In this document: piece by piece, positions 5,713 to 12,519 of the stretch
Layout of the letters: each line of letters begins with the position of its first letter
Numbering within the stretch: position 1 is the first letter of the stretch
Assembly: GCA_003476595.1 (NCBI GenBank)
Contig: DMTU01000347.1
Span: 1 to 12,519 of the forward strand
Length of the DNA stretch: 12,519 nt
Direction of reading: 5' to 3'
From: Acidimicrobiaceae bacterium
GTDB taxonomy: Bacteria; Actinomycetota; Acidimicrobiia; Acidimicrobiales; Salinilacustritrichaceae
Translations under genes and position numbers: made by a program
The notes under the pieces: generated by a model
Seen by the model: the letters and a program-made list of their open reading frames with translations, nothing else
Told to the model about the DNA's origin: nothing
The model's database searches: none

Positions 5713-5807
5713 CGCGGCGCTCGAGGACGTCGAAACCGGCGGCGGCGCACCGGATGGGTTCGCCGAGGTGGCCCTGCAGGATTGGGGTTCCGGTTGGCTC
5801 TGGCCAG

Positions 5808-5849
5808 CGCGCCAGAAGGGAATCGAACCTCGAACCTTCTGATCCGTAG
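5808..5849 (-). other. tRNA-Arg(ACG) 3' half: attachment-site (attR-like) remnant
   Basis: Read on the minus strand from 5849, the sequence begins with the anticodon loop CTACGGA (anticodon ACG), then the stem strand TCAGA and variable loop AGGTT, a T arm with loop TTCGATT, and an acceptor strand CTGGCGC followed by discriminator G. This is the 3' half of actinobacterial tRNA-Arg(ACG). Beyond 5849 the partner stem TCTGA, the D arm and the 5' acceptor strand are absent. The next three bases after the discriminator are CTG, not CCA, and the T stem has two mismatches, so it is not a functional tRNA. Starting exactly at the anticodon loop is the classic crossover region of tRNA-targeting integrases. 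The missing half points right, so the inserted element should lie at higher coordinates. Confidence 0.65.
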
Positions 5850-6014: not shown

Positions 6015-6341
6015 TCAACGTGGACGCGATCGCCAGGTTGCGCCATACACCGAGCGAGCCTCCGCGATGACCTGTTCCCGAAAGTGGCGACTCAGGTCCC
6101 GGATGGTCCGGAGATCGACCTCGCGCCCGACCACGTCACCGAGGTCGAGCTCGAGCTGAGCGATGGTGAGCAGGCCTGGCGTGCGGCCGAGCTCAAACTC
6201 GACGAGCAGGTCGATGTCACTGTCTGGCTCGAGCGTCCCATGGACGGCCGAGCCGAAGAGCCGCAGGCTTCTAATGCCGTGAGCCGTGCAGAACGCGCAA
6301 AGTCGCACGTCGTCGACGGCGACTCCCTCGGCCAGGTCCAC
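6015..6341 (-). CDS. mntA: MntA-type minimal nucleotidyltransferase (antitoxin-like), without HepT
   Basis: This gives 108 residues from GTG 6341. The polymerase-beta-fold signature is complete: LFGSAVHG (G30-S31), SDIDLLVEF (D42 and D44) and the third acid D76 in REVDLRTIRDLS. This is the minimal MNT nucleotidyltransferase group that, as MntA, transfers AMP groups onto the HEPN RNase HepT and neutralises it. Length and the ending LSRHFREQVIAEARSVY are normal for MntA. HepT normally lies adjacent, but nothing HepT-like (RX4-6H motif) is found between 5850 and 6014 or between 6342 and 6520, so it is an orphan here. It may be the relic of a toxin-antitoxin pair, or it may act on another protein. 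The gene symbol rests on family resemblance only. Confidence 0.82.
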   Translation of the reverse strand: MDLAEGVAVDDVRLCAFCTAHGIRSLRLFGSAVHGTLEPDSDIDLLVEFELGRTPGLLTIAQLELDLGDVVGREVDLRTIRDLSRHFREQVIAEARSVYGATWRSRPR

Positions 6342-6487: not shown

Positions 6488-6515
6488 GTGTTCGCCATCA
6501 CCGTCCACCGAACAC
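6488..6515. promoter_or_regulatory. Inverted repeat upstream of the NACHT gene
   Basis: GTGTTCG (6488-6494) and its complement CGAACAC (6509-6515) are separated by 14 bp, ending five bases before the preferred ATG 6521. Spacing of 21 bp centre to centre (two helical turns) suits a dimeric regulator. If translation starts at an upstream GTG, the repeat is coding. Confidence 0.35.
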
Positions 6516-6520
6516 TTCGG

Positions 6521-9500
6521 ATGCGATCGGACGAGCAAACGGACCTTCCGATGCCTTTCGATGGCAACGGATTCCTGGACGACGCAATTCGCACCTACGA
6601 CTCCCTCGACGCTGCCAAGGCGGGAGATCTCCTGACCACCGCTGCAGCTTGCCAAGAACAGGTGGTGCTCATCCTTGGCGAACCTGGTCTGGGCAAGTCG
6701 ACGCTTCTCAGCGAAGTTGAGGCGATTCTCCGCTCGATGAGCCGTACGGTCGCCACTGTCGACGGGGCCGATTTGACCGAGGAGTCATTTGACCGGGAGA
6801 TCCGAGACGCTCTCTCTGACCTCGGTACGGCTGGGGAGACGGCAGCGCCCCCGATGAGCCTGATCGTCGACTCCCTAGACGAGAGCCCGATGGTCTTACG
6901 CTTCGCCCGTCGTCTCCGAAGGTTGCTCGAGTCATCGGACCTGCCGTCGCTCCAGCTCATCCTCGGCTGTCGAACTGCTGACGTTCCTGCCGACCTGCTC
7001 CCTACCTTGCGCCAACTGTTCGATCGGACGCCCTTGGTTGCAGATCTTGCCCCGCTGCGACGCTCAGATGCAGTCGATCTGGCGGCAAGCGCTGGGGTCG
7101 ATGGTGAGAGTCTGGTGACAGCTGCCATTGCTCGCGGGGTGGGATCGATGGCTGCGGTACCACTGACCCTCGGGCTGCTTGTCCGGGAGTATTCCCAGAA
7201 GAGCGGGCTCGACGCACCCCCAAGGGAGCTGTTCGAAAGCGGAATTTGTGAGCTTCTCGAAACGACATCGGCATCGTCCATCTCGACGCTCGACCAGCGT
7301 CGGGCAGTTGCCGAAAGGATGGCTGCGATAGCGCTGCTCACCGGAAAGAGGACGATCTTCGTCGGAAGAAGTGCTGACGCGGCTGCCCACGATCTCAGAG
7401 ACTCACAAGTCGCAGACGGCACCGAGACCACAACGGGCGGTGGCCAGTTCGAGGTCACTCCCTCGCACGTCAGGGAGACCATTGCCACTGCCCTCTTCAG
7501 CGGACGCGGCCCCGATCGCGTGGCGTTCGTCCATGCCTCGCAGGCGGCGTTCCTTGCCGCCTGCTTTCTCGCCCGACAGGAACCCCCACTACCCCGACAG
7601 CAGCTTCGGAGCCTCCTCCTCGTAGCCGCCCCCGACGGCGCCGAGTCAGTGCCCACGTCACTCCGGGAGGTCGCCGCGTGGCTCGCAGCCCTGAGCCCGC
7701 CGGCCGGAGATTGGCTCGCTCGCATCGACCCCGAGAGCCTGGTCAGCCACGAGTCCTACCTCGACAGCCCGCAGCTCAGGTCGCTCGTCGTGGAATCGCT
7801 CCTCGACCGCGCTGCCGACTTCGAACTCGGGAACCGCTACGGGTTCCGGGGCCTCGACCTCGCTCATCCCGGGTTGGCCGATCAGATCATCGAGACGCTC
7901 GGACCCTTCGACTGTCAGCCAACCGACTACCCGGACTTCGCTCGATGCCGCGTGGCATTGCGGCTCGCCGAGCACGCTCAATCTCTTGAGCTGACTGAGC
8001 GCCTGTTTGAGATCGCTCGAAGTCCGAACTGGAACTCCCATCTCGGTTCGCTTGCCGTCGAGGCTCTCCTCAAGGCTGACGGCACCGACGACCGCCTCCG
8101 CGACCTGCTCCGGGCGCTAGACGACGGGGAGTACGCAAGAGCGCGCGACGGCGATGACGAAGTTCGCGGGCACCTACTCGACGGGCTCTGGCCGAGCCGC
8201 ATCAGCTTGCCCAACGTGCTGATGTCGCTACGGCCTCGCCAAAGCGCCCTCTTCGGCTCCTACTGGAGGTTCCTTCGAGAGTTTCCTTCGCGCCTCACCG
8301 ATAGCGACGTCGCCGAAGTCATGCGCTGGGCAGCGAAGTCGTCGAGCGAGGCCGAACCCACCTCACGCCCAGGCGATGAGATTGACATCAGCGAAGAACC
8401 CATCGGTCTTGTCGATCCGATGCTCGCAGAGGCGCTCGTGGGGCGCGCCCTGGAGAGCTCAGTCGGCCACCAGCTTCTGCGAGAAGCGGCAAGGCTCACG
8501 TGGCCCCGTCTTGATCGCTACGACCACCTCGATGTCCCCGAAGCCCTGGACGAGCACCAAAGCGGCGAGACGGCGGTCCTGCTTCGGCACGACTTCGTGG
8601 AGGCGCTGGTTAGGGAACGACCCACGGCTGATCTCGACCAGGCCGATGTGTGGCACCTGGTCAGCTACTGGCGCAGCCGGCGCAACGGGATGCCTAACGA
8701 CGAGGCGGCAAGGTCAAGGCTGGTCGACTCCTCCGACTTCCCGTGGGCCGCGGAGCGTCAGCGAGCCCTCGCCCACGCAGATCCTCCGCTCGCAGAAGGC
8801 CTCGCTCAGCTTGCTGCGTTCCTGTTCGACGCCTCGGACCCTGACCACATCGAGACAGCGTGGAACGCCCACGACACACCGCTGTGGGCGCACATCGGTC
8901 ATTGGTTCGACGCCATCGATCTCGACAGCCCACTGGCCGAACGACTCCGGGAGGTCGCAAGCTTCACTGCGGACGAGGACCTGGACGAGCCGGACCTGGC
9001 TGAGCAAGTGGTGGCCCTTCGTAGCGACGTGCTCGAGCACTACGAAGCAGCAGTTGCCGGTGGGACGGACCACTTCTGGCGACTGGCATATCTCTTGCAG
9101 TTCGAGCCGAAGTCCACCCGGCGGCGGGGACACTCGTTCACCGACCGACTCTTCGAACTCCCAGGCGCTACCGCCCTTCCTGCAGACGCGCGCAGCCACC
9201 TGACGGACGCGGCCCTGAAGTTCCTCATCGAGGAGCACGACCACGCCGACGACTGGCTCGGTTCTGATCGCTACGACCGACGTGCTTGGGCTGGCTACCT
9301 GGCATTGGCCCTACTCGACGAGGCTGGAGCACTCCCGCTGCTGCCGTCGGAGCGCTGGACTCAATGGTGCGGAGCGATCCTCTGGTTCTGGACGTCTGAG
9401 ACCGACGGCGGCGACCCCGACCTGAAGGCGCGACTTCTCGCCCGTGCCACCGCCTTCGCCAGCGAACGAATGGCCGCGCTGTTGAGGCAGTTTGTACGCA

Positions 9501-10906
9501 CGGAACTTCGGAGGGGCGGTCTCGCCTCCGAGGTTGAGTCCTTCCCCGCTCCTTCCGTCCTCGGCATCAAAGCAACATGGATCGACATAACGCAGGAGAC
9601 GCGAGATGCGCTCCTGTCACGTGCAGGCCAAGATCACGACGAAGGCGATCGATCCGGCTCCGTTCAAATCCCGACGGACGAGGGGGCTCGAGGCAACGCA
9701 CGCTTCACGCTCGAGCGGCTCGTCTCAAGACTCATCGTGGCTGACCCGGTGGAGGCTGAGAGCCTCGTCCTCGAATGGCTTCGCAGTGCTGACAGCACCG
9801 AGAGCCTTGGCTTGGCCGCGAGCGCCGCCGCCCAGTTGATCGCCAAGCATCCGAACTCCTGGCAGAGGGTGCGTCCGATTGCTCAGGCTTCCGCCGACAA
9901 CGGGCGAGCGATCGCCCTGGCCTTGAGCGACCAGCGCTGCGGCTCCGCCCTCGAATCTGAGGCTGACGAGTCCGAACTCATGCTTCTGTACGAGTGGCTT
10001 GCGACCCTGTACCCGCCTGACAGCGACCCTCCGGACACGCTGGGCGCCGGATGGGTTTCAGCAGAGGCGCAGACGAGCCGCTGGCGCGACGGCGTTCTAT
10101 CAACGATCGCCAACCGCGGGACGGAACGCGGGCTTCTCGTTCTGGCTCAACTGAGGGAGCGCTACCCGACGCGAACCGTTGTGCTCGCGAACCTCGTACG
10201 AGCCCGAATCGCCGTTTTCGGATCGGCATGGACTCCTCCGACTCCCGGCGACCTGCAAGCTCTGATCGCCGACCACCGTCGACGCCTCGTCCGCAGCGCG
10301 GAAGAACTCAGCGCGTTGATACGCGATGCCTTGCACGAACTCCAGGACGACTTGCCAAGGACCGGTCAACTGCTGTGGGACCAGGTCGCCAAGAGGGGCG
10401 CGGCGCCAATCTGGCGGCCGAAGCCAGAGGCCGCGCTTTCGGCATTCGTGGCGCATGAACTCCGGCTTCGCCTAGTCGGTAGGGGACTCGCAGTCCACCA
10501 GGAGGTGCTCGTCAAGCCCACAGACGCCAAGGGTTCGGGCGACCAGCCAGACATCCTGATCGAAGCCACAGCGAGTAGGAGTTCAAGCTACGGGCCGACC
10601 GCGTTTCGCGTAGCAGTGGAGCTCAAGGGGTCATGGAACGACGAGGTTCTCGCGGCCCAGGGCGACCAACTGGCCGCCCGGTACCTGCCCGAGTCGAACA
10701 CAAGCGTCGGCATCTACATCGTGGGTTGGTACCCGCTCGACCAGTGGGCCACCGACGACGGCCCGAGGAAGAAGGCGAAGAAGCACAAGAGCGCCGAAGG
10801 CTTGGGCGAAGCACTTTTGCAACAGGCGGATGAGATCCGAGCTGAGTGCGAGCTCCTGGTCATCCCGGTCGTGCTGACGATTCCGAGGCCGGCTCCGAAT
10901 GACTGA
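6521..10906 (+). CDS. NACHT-like STAND NTPase with C-terminal PD-(D/E)XK-type nuclease domain
   Basis: From ATG 6521 this encodes 1461 residues. The frame is open to GTG 6449 and 6488, and ATG 6551 is also possible; none has a clear Shine-Dalgarno. An N-terminal NTPase (about 15-350) has Walker A GEPGLGKST (53-61, K59), the NACHT-style Walker B LIVDSLDES (114-122), a sensor-like LILGCRTAD (147-155) and AVPLTLGLL with the winged-helix Pro (P214). About 350 to 1270 is long, helical and repeat-like without a named domain, probably an alpha-solenoid that senses the trigger. At about 1290-1410 a restriction-fold signature appears: GDQPDILIEA (D1344) and VAVELKGSWN (E1367, K1369), then YIVGWYPLDQW. 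It is not an Avs protein, whose nuclease is N-terminal. Likely a cytosolic defence ATPase that cuts DNA when triggered; that role is inferred. Codon use is looser than in genes left of 5800. Confidence 0.85.
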   Translation: MRSDEQTDLPMPFDGNGFLDDAIRTYDSLDAAKAGDLLTTAAACQEQVVLILGEPGLGKSTLLSEVEAILRSMSRTVATVDGADLTEESFDREIRDALSDLGTAGETAAPPMSLIVDSLDESPMVLRFARRLRRLLESSDLPSLQLILGCRTADVPADLLPTLRQLFDRTPLVADLAPLRRSDAVDLAASAGVDGESLVTAAIARGVGSMAAVPLTLGLLVREYSQKSGLDAPPRELFESGICELLETTSASSISTLDQRRAVAERMAAIALLTGKRTIFVGRSADAAAHDLRDSQVADGTETTTGGGQFEVTPSHVRETIATALFSGRGPDRVAFVHASQAAFLAACFLARQEPPLPRQQLRSLLLVAAPDGAESVPTSLREVAAWLAALSPPAGDWLARIDPESLVSHESYLDSPQLRSLVVESLLDRAADFELGNRYGFRGLDLAHPGLADQIIETLGPFDCQPTDYPDFARCRVALRLAEHAQSLELTERLFEIARSPNWNSHLGSLAVEALLKADGTDDRLRDLLRALDDGEYARARDGDDEVRGHLLDGLWPSRISLPNVLMSLRPRQSALFGSYWRFLREFPSRLTDSDVAEVMRWAAKSSSEAEPTSRPGDEIDISEEPIGLVDPMLAEALVGRALESSVGHQLLREAARLTWPRLDRYDHLDVPEALDEHQSGETAVLLRHDFVEALVRERPTADLDQADVWHLVSYWRSRRNGMPNDEAARSRLVDSSDFPWAAERQRALAHADPPLAEGLAQLAAFLFDASDPDHIETAWNAHDTPLWAHIGHWFDAIDLDSPLAERLREVASFTADEDLDEPDLAEQVVALRSDVLEHYEAAVAGGTDHFWRLAYLLQFEPKSTRRRGHSFTDRLFELPGATALPADARSHLTDAALKFLIEEHDHADDWLGSDRYDRRAWAGYLALALLDEAGALPLLPSERWTQWCGAILWFWTSETDGGDPDLKARLLARATAFASERMAALLRQFVRTELRRGGLASEVESFPAPSVLGIKATWIDITQETRDALLSRAGQDHDEGDRSGSVQIPTDEGARGNARFTLERLVSRLIVADPVEAESLVLEWLRSADSTESLGLAASAAAQLIAKHPNSWQRVRPIAQASADNGRAIALALSDQRCGSALESEADESELMLLYEWLATLYPPDSDPPDTLGAGWVSAEAQTSRWRDGVLSTIANRGTERGLLVLAQLRERYPTRTVVLANLVRARIAVFGSAWTPPTPGDLQALIADHRRRLVRSAEELSALIRDALHELQDDLPRTGQLLWDQVAKRGAAPIWRPKPEAALSAFVAHELRLRLVGRGLAVHQEVLVKPTDAKGSGDQPDILIEATASRSSSYGPTAFRVAVELKGSWNDEVLAAQGDQLAARYLPESNTSVGIYIVGWYPLDQWATDDGPRKKAKKHKSAEGLGEALLQQADEIRAECELLVIPVVLTIPRPAPND

Positions 10907-10928: not shown

Positions 10929-10950
10929 ACCGAACATCACAGTGTTCGGT
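10929..10950 (+). terminator. Hairpin after the NACHT gene
   Basis: ACCGAACA (10929-10936) pairs perfectly with TGTTCGGT (10943-10950) around TCACAG, 23 bp after the stop codon, and is followed by GTTGTGG. Position suits a terminator. The arms repeat the TGTTCG/CGAACA motif of the inverted repeat at 6488-6515, so a regulatory site is the alternative. Confidence 0.5.
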
Positions 10951-11149
10951 GTTGTGGAGGCGCTTGGGGCGACCCCGTTCTCCCGGTGAGGAACCTATGT
11001 CAAGCGACCACAGCCGCAGTCACGGGGCTAGCCACCGCAGACCACTCCGTCCTGCTGGAGCCCGGCCTGACGTATCGCAGCTCGCCATTATCAGCCGGCC
11101 CGACTGTCGCTCGAACGACAGGGTCCAACGCGTCTCTCTCGGCGCACCG

Positions 11150-11236
11150 TTCCTCGTGCTGCAGGAGCGCGTCGGCCACTCGACGGCGAACCTCACGCTG
11201 AACGGGTCGCCACGTGTCGCCAAGGATGCACGCTGA
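11150..11236 (+). pseudogene. Tyrosine recombinase (phage-type integrase) C-terminal remnant
   Basis: The last codons before TGA 11234-11236 read VLQERVGHSTANLTLNGSPR, then VAKDAR. This resembles the 'vLQErLGHSsa.lTLn.Y.HV.kdA' end of phage-type tyrosine integrases, in which the GHS histidine and the following Tyr are active-site residues. The His is kept, but the Tyr position reads G-S-P-R where R-Y-x-H is expected, so catalysis is lost. Upstream codons in this frame lack the Arg boxes. Only about 27 residues are recognisable, so the call rests on one motif, but an integrase scar fits the att-like site at 5808. Confidence 0.45.
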
Positions 11237-11299: not shown

Positions 11300-12519
11300 A
11301 TGGCACTCGAAGACAACATCGTCCAGATCCTCAGAGACGCCAGCGACTCGCACTGGCGCGCCGCGGAAATGCTTCTACGGCTATGGATCGACAGTGGGAA
11401 CTCGATTTCGCCGTGGCACGACGACACGATGCGGGAAGACGCCGAGCAACTCGCAACCGCAGCGTTAGACCACATCGGCGAAGCCTCGATCGCCGTGGAG
11501 CCGATCGCAGCACTTACTTCGCCGCTCTCTGCCAATCATCAGGCGTATGCGCTGGGCATGGCGATCGATCGCGCAGCGGCAGGGAAGTTCACAGCCCAGT
11601 GGCTCAACGAACGCGGCGAACAGTTCCTACTTGAGCCGGGCCAACTGTACCCGGTGTCGAACATGAGCCTGAAGGGCACTTCCGGCTACAGCACTCGGCC
11701 GCATCGGCTGTTCTTGCCGCCGAGCGAGCTCCCTCACGTCCGACAGCTTCGGCGTGACGACGTCGACGTTGTGATCGATGCCAGATGGGGCCGGCTCCTT
11801 GATGCATTGATCGCACAAAGCCCGTTGACAGTCGCAGCCGTTCTCCCAAACGAAGACTGGTCTGAACTAACGCCCATCGATGCATTCCCGGTCGGGGCCG
11901 CTGACGAAGATGCGCAGATCGCCCGGATCCGGGCCGCTGTCGAACATGCTCTCCGAAACCACGTTGCGGCGATCGTCGTCCCCGAACTCGCGACTCCTCA
12001 CCCGGCGCTCACCGTGCTCCAGCAACTGATCTCGGATGCGCCCGATATCTGCCTCGTGTACGCGGGATCTGAGCATGTCACCGTCGCCGACGCTCCCAGG
12101 AACCGAGCATCCGTCTTGCTCACCGACGCTGCGACCCCTGCGTGGGAGCAGGAGAAGGCGGTCCCCTTTGAGGATCGCGACGGCAACGTGGAACCGATCG
12201 AGCGACAGCGCCTGGTGCTCCGAATTGCGACCGGCAACCATGTTCGCGTTGCTGCTCTTGTATGTAAGGACTACCTCAGCGAGAACTTCGCCGACCTCCT
12301 GGGAGATCTTGGAGTCCACCTCGTCGGGGTTCCCGCCGCTTCCGCCGGACTGGGAGATTTCGGCAGTGCCGGCCAATCCCTGATCAGACGGTCGCAAGGC
12401 TCATCGATCGTCGCCAACGGACCGCGAGTTTGGGACGGCGAACCTGCAGAGCACGCCGTCATCGTTCACCCAGTGTCGAGCCCCGATCGCGTCGCAGTGA
12501 AGCGCCCCGGGTCTGGTGG
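11300..12519 (+). CDS. Nitrilase-superfamily (carbon-nitrogen hydrolase) protein, partial at the right edge
   Basis: ATG 11300 opens a frame without stops to the window end (406 codons). The first 200 or so residues (MALEDNIVQILRDASDSHWR onward) match nothing I recognise. From about 205 the nitrilase fold appears with its triad: E229 in AAIVVPELATP, K286 in WEQEKAVPFED (compare the usual 'rKrhLvPFgE') and C322 in AALVCKDYLSENFADLLGDL, followed by GVHLVGVPAAS. Spacings of 57 and 36 residues fit the family. Nitrilase enzymes cleave non-peptide C-N bonds; the same domain is fused to reverse transcriptase in DRT type 1 defence, but no RT motif is seen here. Roughly 50-60 residues should remain past the edge. 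It lies 394 bp after the NACHT gene on the same strand with a similar base composition. Shine-Dalgarno is weak. Confidence 0.78.
   Translation, partial: MALEDNIVQILRDASDSHWRAAEMLLRLWIDSGNSISPWHDDTMREDAEQLATAALDHIGEASIAVEPIAALTSPLSANHQAYALGMAIDRAAAGKFTAQWLNERGEQFLLEPGQLYPVSNMSLKGTSGYSTRPHRLFLPPSELPHVRQLRRDDVDVVIDARWGRLLDALIAQSPLTVAAVLPNEDWSELTPIDAFPVGAADEDAQIARIRAAVEHALRNHVAAIVVPELATPHPALTVLQQLISDAPDICLVYAGSEHVTVADAPRNRASVLLTDAATPAWEQEKAVPFEDRDGNVEPIERQRLVLRIATGNHVRVAALVCKDYLSENFADLLGDLGVHLVGVPAASAGLGDFGSAGQSLIRRSQGSSIVANGPRVWDGEPAEHAVIVHPVSSPDRVAVKRPGSG

Follow-up and report, generated by a model that had tools for sequence, protein, structure and literature searches.

A putative anti-phage NACHT protein with its predicted nuclease last, and its place beside EruA and HyoA

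The DNA analysed here is a stretch of 12,519 nucleotides (the window, C207:1-12519) from the genome of an Acidimicrobiaceae bacterium (4.24 Mb, 79.8% complete). One of its genes encodes a protein, related to the NLR immune sensors of animals, with a NACHT NTPase at the N-terminal end, a long helical middle and a predicted PD-(D/E)XK nuclease at the C-terminal end. We propose, with a probability of roughly 0.72, that this gene on its own forms an immune switch against phage, of the NACHT (NLR-like) type and with its effector last. The anti-phage role is inferred from two sources, its relatives and its genomic context. We place the gene in a third branch of an already named effector-last bNACHT superfamily and not in a wholly new class. 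Its open reading frame (ORF) at 6521-10906 (+) translates into 1461 amino acids with no internal stop, and residue numbers are counted from the ATG at 6521, not from the GTG at 6488. An earlier note, made from the DNA letters, had described this ORF, both Walker motifs and the residues D1344, E1367 and K1369; all lie where it placed them and are conserved in an alignment of 120 proteins, and the NACHT fold, helical middle and C-terminal PD-(D/E)XK domain that it predicted were upheld by sequence and structure models. The findings that it had named as speaking against it were looked at and none was seen: the C-terminal fold is nuclease-like, homologs keep the D, E and K, and the distribution is sporadic.

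The NACHT NTPase module with its winged-helix part covers residues about 20-345 (6578..7555, +). It contains the Walker A motif GEPGLGKST (residues 53-61; 6677..6703, +) and the Walker B motif D117-S-L-D120-E121 (6869..6883, +). The MAFFT alignment comprised P0001 and 119 homologs, and its denominators are the sequences with a letter in the column. K59 is kept in 113/113 sequences, D117 and D120 each in 116/116 and E121 in 115/116. The module has Walker A, a Walker B of the form D-x2-D-E and a winged helix within a NACHT fold, which classes it as a NACHT/STAND NTPase, and it is of the NLR type. The helical middle (residues 346-1289; 7556..10387, +) was delimited by structure model and block conservation. 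The structure model of the NACHT-helical part ends at residue 1190, with residues 1191-1282 outside it, and within the model no strand of three or more residues occurs beyond model residue 326 (protein residue 336). A Foldseek search with this model gave Avs4 as top match (E 5.1e-8). Conservation, taken as the mean share of the commonest residue per 50-residue block of the 120-protein alignment, is 0.42-0.59 in residues 1-600, 0.35-0.38 in 601-850, 0.45-0.49 in 851-950, 0.35-0.40 in 951-1150 and 0.43-0.57 from 1151 onward. The most variable stretches thus fall mid-protein, as expected for a sensor between two catalytic parts, and the helical middle is the likely sensor.

The C-terminal domain covers residues 1290-1461 (10388..10903, +) and is modelled with the alpha-beta3-alpha-beta core of PD-(D/E)XK nucleases, in which strand 2 carries the D and strand 3 the ExK. 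The predicted metal ligand D1344 (10550..10552, +) is kept in 115/116 sequences. In the (D/E)XK motif E1367-L-K1369 (10619..10627, +), E1367 is kept in 114/117 and K1369 in 113/116, and all three residues are invariant in 31 aligned C-termini. Q1383-L1384 and Y1388 (10667..10684, +) lie on the helix that follows the catalytic strand in the structure model (Q1383 in 114/115, Y1388 in 113/116), and E1303 is kept in 115/116. Conservation and structure model together rule out a chance occurrence of D...ExK. Sequence searches of the PDB gave nothing relevant: one match at E 0.07 was a plant enzyme, and the other searches had zero matches up to E 5 and zero up to E 0.01.

The nuclease tail is present in 114 of the best 120 of 156 database proteins, from a homolog search that scored 7993 candidates, and absent from P0042, P0043, P0100, P0114, P0116 and P0120. 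In several relatives the same core is followed by another module. Locus L005, on a viral contig, has a GT4-conflict glycosyltransferase there (L005:7809-12818, E 2e-106), L022 a CHAT domain (E 2.5e-9) and P0120 a TIR domain (E 1.2e-13), and L033 gave a weak alpha/beta-hydrolase match (E 5e-5). By eye, the tail of L020 is a hydrophobic membrane-like segment, that of L039 is CHAT-like, and P0042 (Streptomyces, 2552 amino acids) continues after its NACHT-helical core with an apparent second NTPase and further sequence. No tail was recognised in P0043, P0100, P0114, P0116, L029 and L036, some of which may be truncated or frameshifted. Among Rhizobium plasmid proteins, five that match over 85% of the distant member P0049 are annotated as glycosyltransferase, which is consistent with the GT4 form. 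CHAT is an effector domain of conflict systems. GT4 and TIR are likewise given as such effectors in the available text of PMC8195603. Because TIR, CHAT and GT4 effectors occupy the same position in relatives, the predicted nuclease is probably the effector of the window protein. A search with residues 1290-1461 alone, by which only proteins of 0.55-1.75 times the length could be found, returned 64 proteins and no other architecture; 40 were new, all with the same helical core and tail and 37 also with NACHT. In L019 and L039 (Actinokineospora, Nostoc) the family gene falls into a pair of ORFs, through frameshift, decay or assembly error.

These parts suggest how the switch would work. At rest the protein would be closed and nucleotide-bound. 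A phage product or a phage-induced host signal would bind the helical middle, upon which the NACHT module would exchange nucleotide and the protein would undergo NTP-dependent opening and would oligomerise by way of this module. This may bring the C-terminal nuclease domains together, and the active nuclease would then cut phage and/or host DNA, so that the infected cell stops or dies ahead of phage release. In STAND proteins with an N-terminal effector the effector adjoins the NTPase, whereas in the window protein about 900 residues lie between the two, and a signal to the tail has to pass through the sensor or around it. This long path from NTPase to tail is the mechanistically interesting difference.

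Other readings of the same architecture were weighed. Restriction enzymes are the closest nuclease folds to the C-terminal domain, and restriction genes adjoin some homologs, among them a PLD-helicase at L021. The protein could therefore be a restriction-like, NTP-driven nuclease (McrBC- or type-IV-like) that cuts invading DNA without killing the cell and uses NACHT as a motor. However, its NTPase is of the NLR type and not a translocating motor, domain-library scans of the protein recognised no methyltransferase or recognition domain, and the TIR and CHAT swaps better fit a cell-killing output, so that this seems unlikely. PD-(D/E)XK folds are also able to bind DNA without cutting it, and the C-terminal domain might be a sensor of DNA ends or modified DNA while the NACHT ring or a partner acts. 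The C-terminus is indeed the sensor in published bacterial STAND proteins, as far as the available text of PMC12169576 and PMC10907252 goes. Against this, the metal-site residues are kept in at least 97% of sequences, which would be needless for mere binding, and effector types (TIR, CHAT, GT4-conflict) fill the same slot in relatives. Moreover, with Walker A from residue 53 (64 from GTG 6488) there is scant room for an N-terminal effector. We consider a sensory tail quite improbable and favour the NACHT immune switch with its nuclease as output.

The genomic context points to a mobile gene. G+C drops from about 0.69-0.73 to 0.62-0.67 at the gene. Upstream lies a 46-bp copy of the 3' half of tRNA-Arg(ACG) (5804..5849, -), 42/46 identical to the intact gene on contig C170 of the same genome and a probable relic attachment site. 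The earlier note had spoken of a tRNA-bounded island. One end does carry this tRNA remnant, but ARAGORN found no tRNA in the window and Rfam gave 0 matches at E 0.5. Neither an integrase nor a second boundary was recognised in the window, which ends inside the next gene, so that the right boundary is out of view. A contig of 20,199 bases carries this gene. The gene was probably acquired horizontally. Among 148 genomes of the class, the only full match is in its own genome, which rules out a housekeeping locus. Two other class genomes gave partial matches, one over 82 N-terminal residues (E 4.3e-4) and one over 151 (E 8.8e-4), and neither locus has an ORF that the helical or C-terminal profiles recognise. 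Of the 14 plasmid records matched by P0001, 11 are predicted conjugative, as are 23 of the 45 matched by P0049; P0049 had no match in an annotated phage collection. Relatives are also encoded on six viral contigs, and the member P0025, 35% identical, occurs in the laboratory strain Streptomyces venezuelae ATCC 10712. A contig profile scan of genomes found at least 39 loci.

Defence genes were found beside part of the homologs, in keeping with the defence role suggested in the earlier note, although not as a clean statistic. At 30 loci, 137 neighbour genes matched 144 PADLOC families, against 74 families for 131 control genes. The 25 neighbour families listed include ThsA, ThsB, type IV methyl-directed restriction, CARF-HEPN, DrmC, AbiLi, RmrA, PbeA, mad3 and AriA; the 25 listed for the control are mostly PD-T4-6 (one gene), RtcR, HEC-01A and mad6, with mad3 and AriA in the same numbers as among neighbours. 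Neighbours were taken by a greedy longest-ORF rule (150-1250 amino acids, within 4 kb, at most six per locus; 140 chosen, three large ones dropped), and the control was 131 of 154 genes from 18 stretches of nine of the genomes. The excess is supportive, but the models are redundant and it counts families, not genes. Among 318 neighbour ORFs at 45 loci, a set that does not contain the window's own neighbours, no conserved partner was found for the window's own branch. The one wide cluster is a gene upstream of EruA-branch members at five loci (see below), and a three-locus cluster that includes L028 resembles ABC transporters (Pfam on L028 only). That the gene is cargo with another conflict role, such as plasmid exclusion or toxin-like island stabilisation, finds some backing in the predicted conjugative plasmids (11/14 and 23/45 records) and the relic tRNA site, but NCBIfam titles both EruA and HyoA 'NACHT domain-containing antiphage protein' and named phage-defence genes stand among the neighbours, which leaves this reading only a slim chance.

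The gene as a whole probably spans 6488..10906 (+). In an alignment of the N-termini of 18 homologs with the window, P0003, P0006, P0009 and P0011 begin with Met exactly at GTG 6488 (P0003 and P0006 are 81% and 64% identical to the window protein over its length), and the stretch preceding 6521 is also common to other homologs. P0004, P0007, P0008 and the database copy P0002, which are called from the position of 6551, weigh against this start. The ORF from ATG 6521 given in the earlier note is intact, but the true start is probably GTG 6488, and the gene would therefore be 1472 codons long.

Three further ORFs were examined. The downstream gene at 11300-12519 (+), cut by the window end, is 411 amino acids long in the database (P0122) and belongs to a family of six database matches including itself. 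E229, K286 and C322 are invariant in this family, presumably a nitrilase-type Glu-Lys-Cys triad, and it has no Pfam or NCBIfam match. It is unsupported as a partner, since tblastn at E 1 matched nothing in the relatives' loci searched. Upstream, 6015-6341 (-) encodes an MntA-like nucleotidyltransferase (PF01909, 3.9e-13; PADLOC candidate PDC-S09, 3e-23) that scores below the NCBIfam MntA cut-off; no HepT-like partner ORF was seen beside it by eye, and no search aimed at HepT was made. Lastly, the tail LQERVGHSTANLTL of a short ORF at 10949-11236 (+) is reminiscent of a tyrosine recombinase C-terminus. The ORF has no Pfam match and is possibly an integrase remnant or chance.

In bacterial NACHT/STAND proteins the effector is placed first and the sensor last in the available text of PMC12169576, and 'usually' so in that of PMC10907252. 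The window protein shares with Avs4/AVAST/bNACHT proteins a STAND-type NTPase, a helical solenoid and a PD-(D/E)XK nuclease. However, Avs proteins carry the effector at the N-terminus and the sensor at the C-terminus (PMC12169576, same text), whereas here Walker A starts at residue 53 and the predicted nuclease occupies 1290-1461. The reversed order claimed in the earlier note therefore holds, and by its order the protein falls outside Avs. The best match to a PADLOC Avs model, Avs2, had a non-significant E of 0.051, and Foldseek put Avs4 first for the NACHT-helical part. Comparable in layout are the STAND-GT4 fusions, for which a predicted GT4 effector C-terminal to NACHT and other STAND modules was described earlier (PMC8195603, available text). 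The relative L005 is of their type, but the window protein has a nuclease in the GT4 slot. The available text of PMC8195603 holds no description of this NACHT-helical family or of a nuclease in that slot, and in the literature searched we recognised no general account of NACHT proteins that carry a nuclease effector at the C-terminus.

The nearest named families are EruA and HyoA, which NCBI presumably named from experiments. In open-licence PMC literature we found no report on either as a defence protein; an unrelated E. coli regulator also bears the name EruA. The window protein matches EruA (NF058535) at E 1.5e-48 and HyoA (NF058534) at E 9.6e-27, with 165.8 and 93 bits against cut-offs of 1000 and 1200. 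Among the 30 members of alignment A1, EruA was matched at 1e-5 by 30 and HyoA by 24. EruA has the same order, with NACHT first, a helical middle and a C-terminal D..ExK..QLxxxY nuclease; two parts of its model, profile positions 23-555 and 992-1315 of 1318, align to the two ends of the window gene, and L040, L047 and L051, above the EruA cut-off of 1000 bits, show in their tails the D, E, K, Q, L and Y that are invariant in alignment A3 (the 31 C-termini). HyoA is also NACHT-first, and all ten HyoA-type proteins fetched, seven of them over the cut-off, have D..ExK..Q(L/I)xxxY near the end. HyoA scored over the cut-off in 7/398 genomes of one phylum sample. One Methylobacter genome (G163) has one locus of each branch (L038, L047, L084), namely window-type, EruA above its cut-off and HyoA-like below its cut-off (1087 bits over part of the protein).

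Both families also differ from the window gene. For 83 NACHT-helical cores a quick maximum-likelihood tree was made, in which 32 of the 80 inner branches stay open. It sets the EruA-branch rows apart as one clade (12 rows, SH-aLRT 98) and the HyoA-branch rows as another (10 rows, 100). The window falls in a 60-row set, itself included, of weak support (81) and is nested in a starred 17-row set with support 98; L043, a long row, is placed on the EruA-HyoA side. The tree was built without L006, L010-L012, L024, L035 and L039, and its 31 P rows were selected by hand. PDEXK was the default label for every row with no listed swap, which takes in L046 (tail truncated) and L019 (tail on a second ORF). 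With five rows of absent or cut tail omitted, the seven tail changes counted are seven singletons, each other state being one row. Of the ten HyoA-type tails, only seven are recognised by the profile built on the C-termini of the window's family (four of the seven over the cut-off). Five of the 12 EruA-branch loci (L044, L045, L048, L049, L051) have a common gene immediately upstream of the NACHT gene, adjoining or overlapping it, and none was noticed beside the window gene. In the two copies scanned of the five (L045, L051) Pfam finds AAA_14 and DUF4143, and this gene is likely a partner of the EruA-branch NACHT gene.

By sequence, the NTPase-first, nuclease-last order thus belongs to a superfamily of at least three branches with the window gene in the third, and the 'separate class' of the earlier note does not stand as worded, since EruA and HyoA have the same order. 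More broadly, we think it reasonably likely that EruA, HyoA and the large third branch make up an effector-last superfamily of bacterial NLR-like proteins. In these, the NACHT switch would be followed by the sensor solenoid and then by an exchangeable C-terminal cartridge, mostly a PD-(D/E)XK nuclease but in some members a TIR, CHAT, GT4-conflict, hydrolase, membrane or second-NTPase module. If so, the textbook order of effector, NTPase and sensor is not universal and output can be passed via the sensor. Next to the effector-first systems, a nuclease-last family with swapped tails is a clear, testable exception and a natural set of proteins for telling sensor from output.

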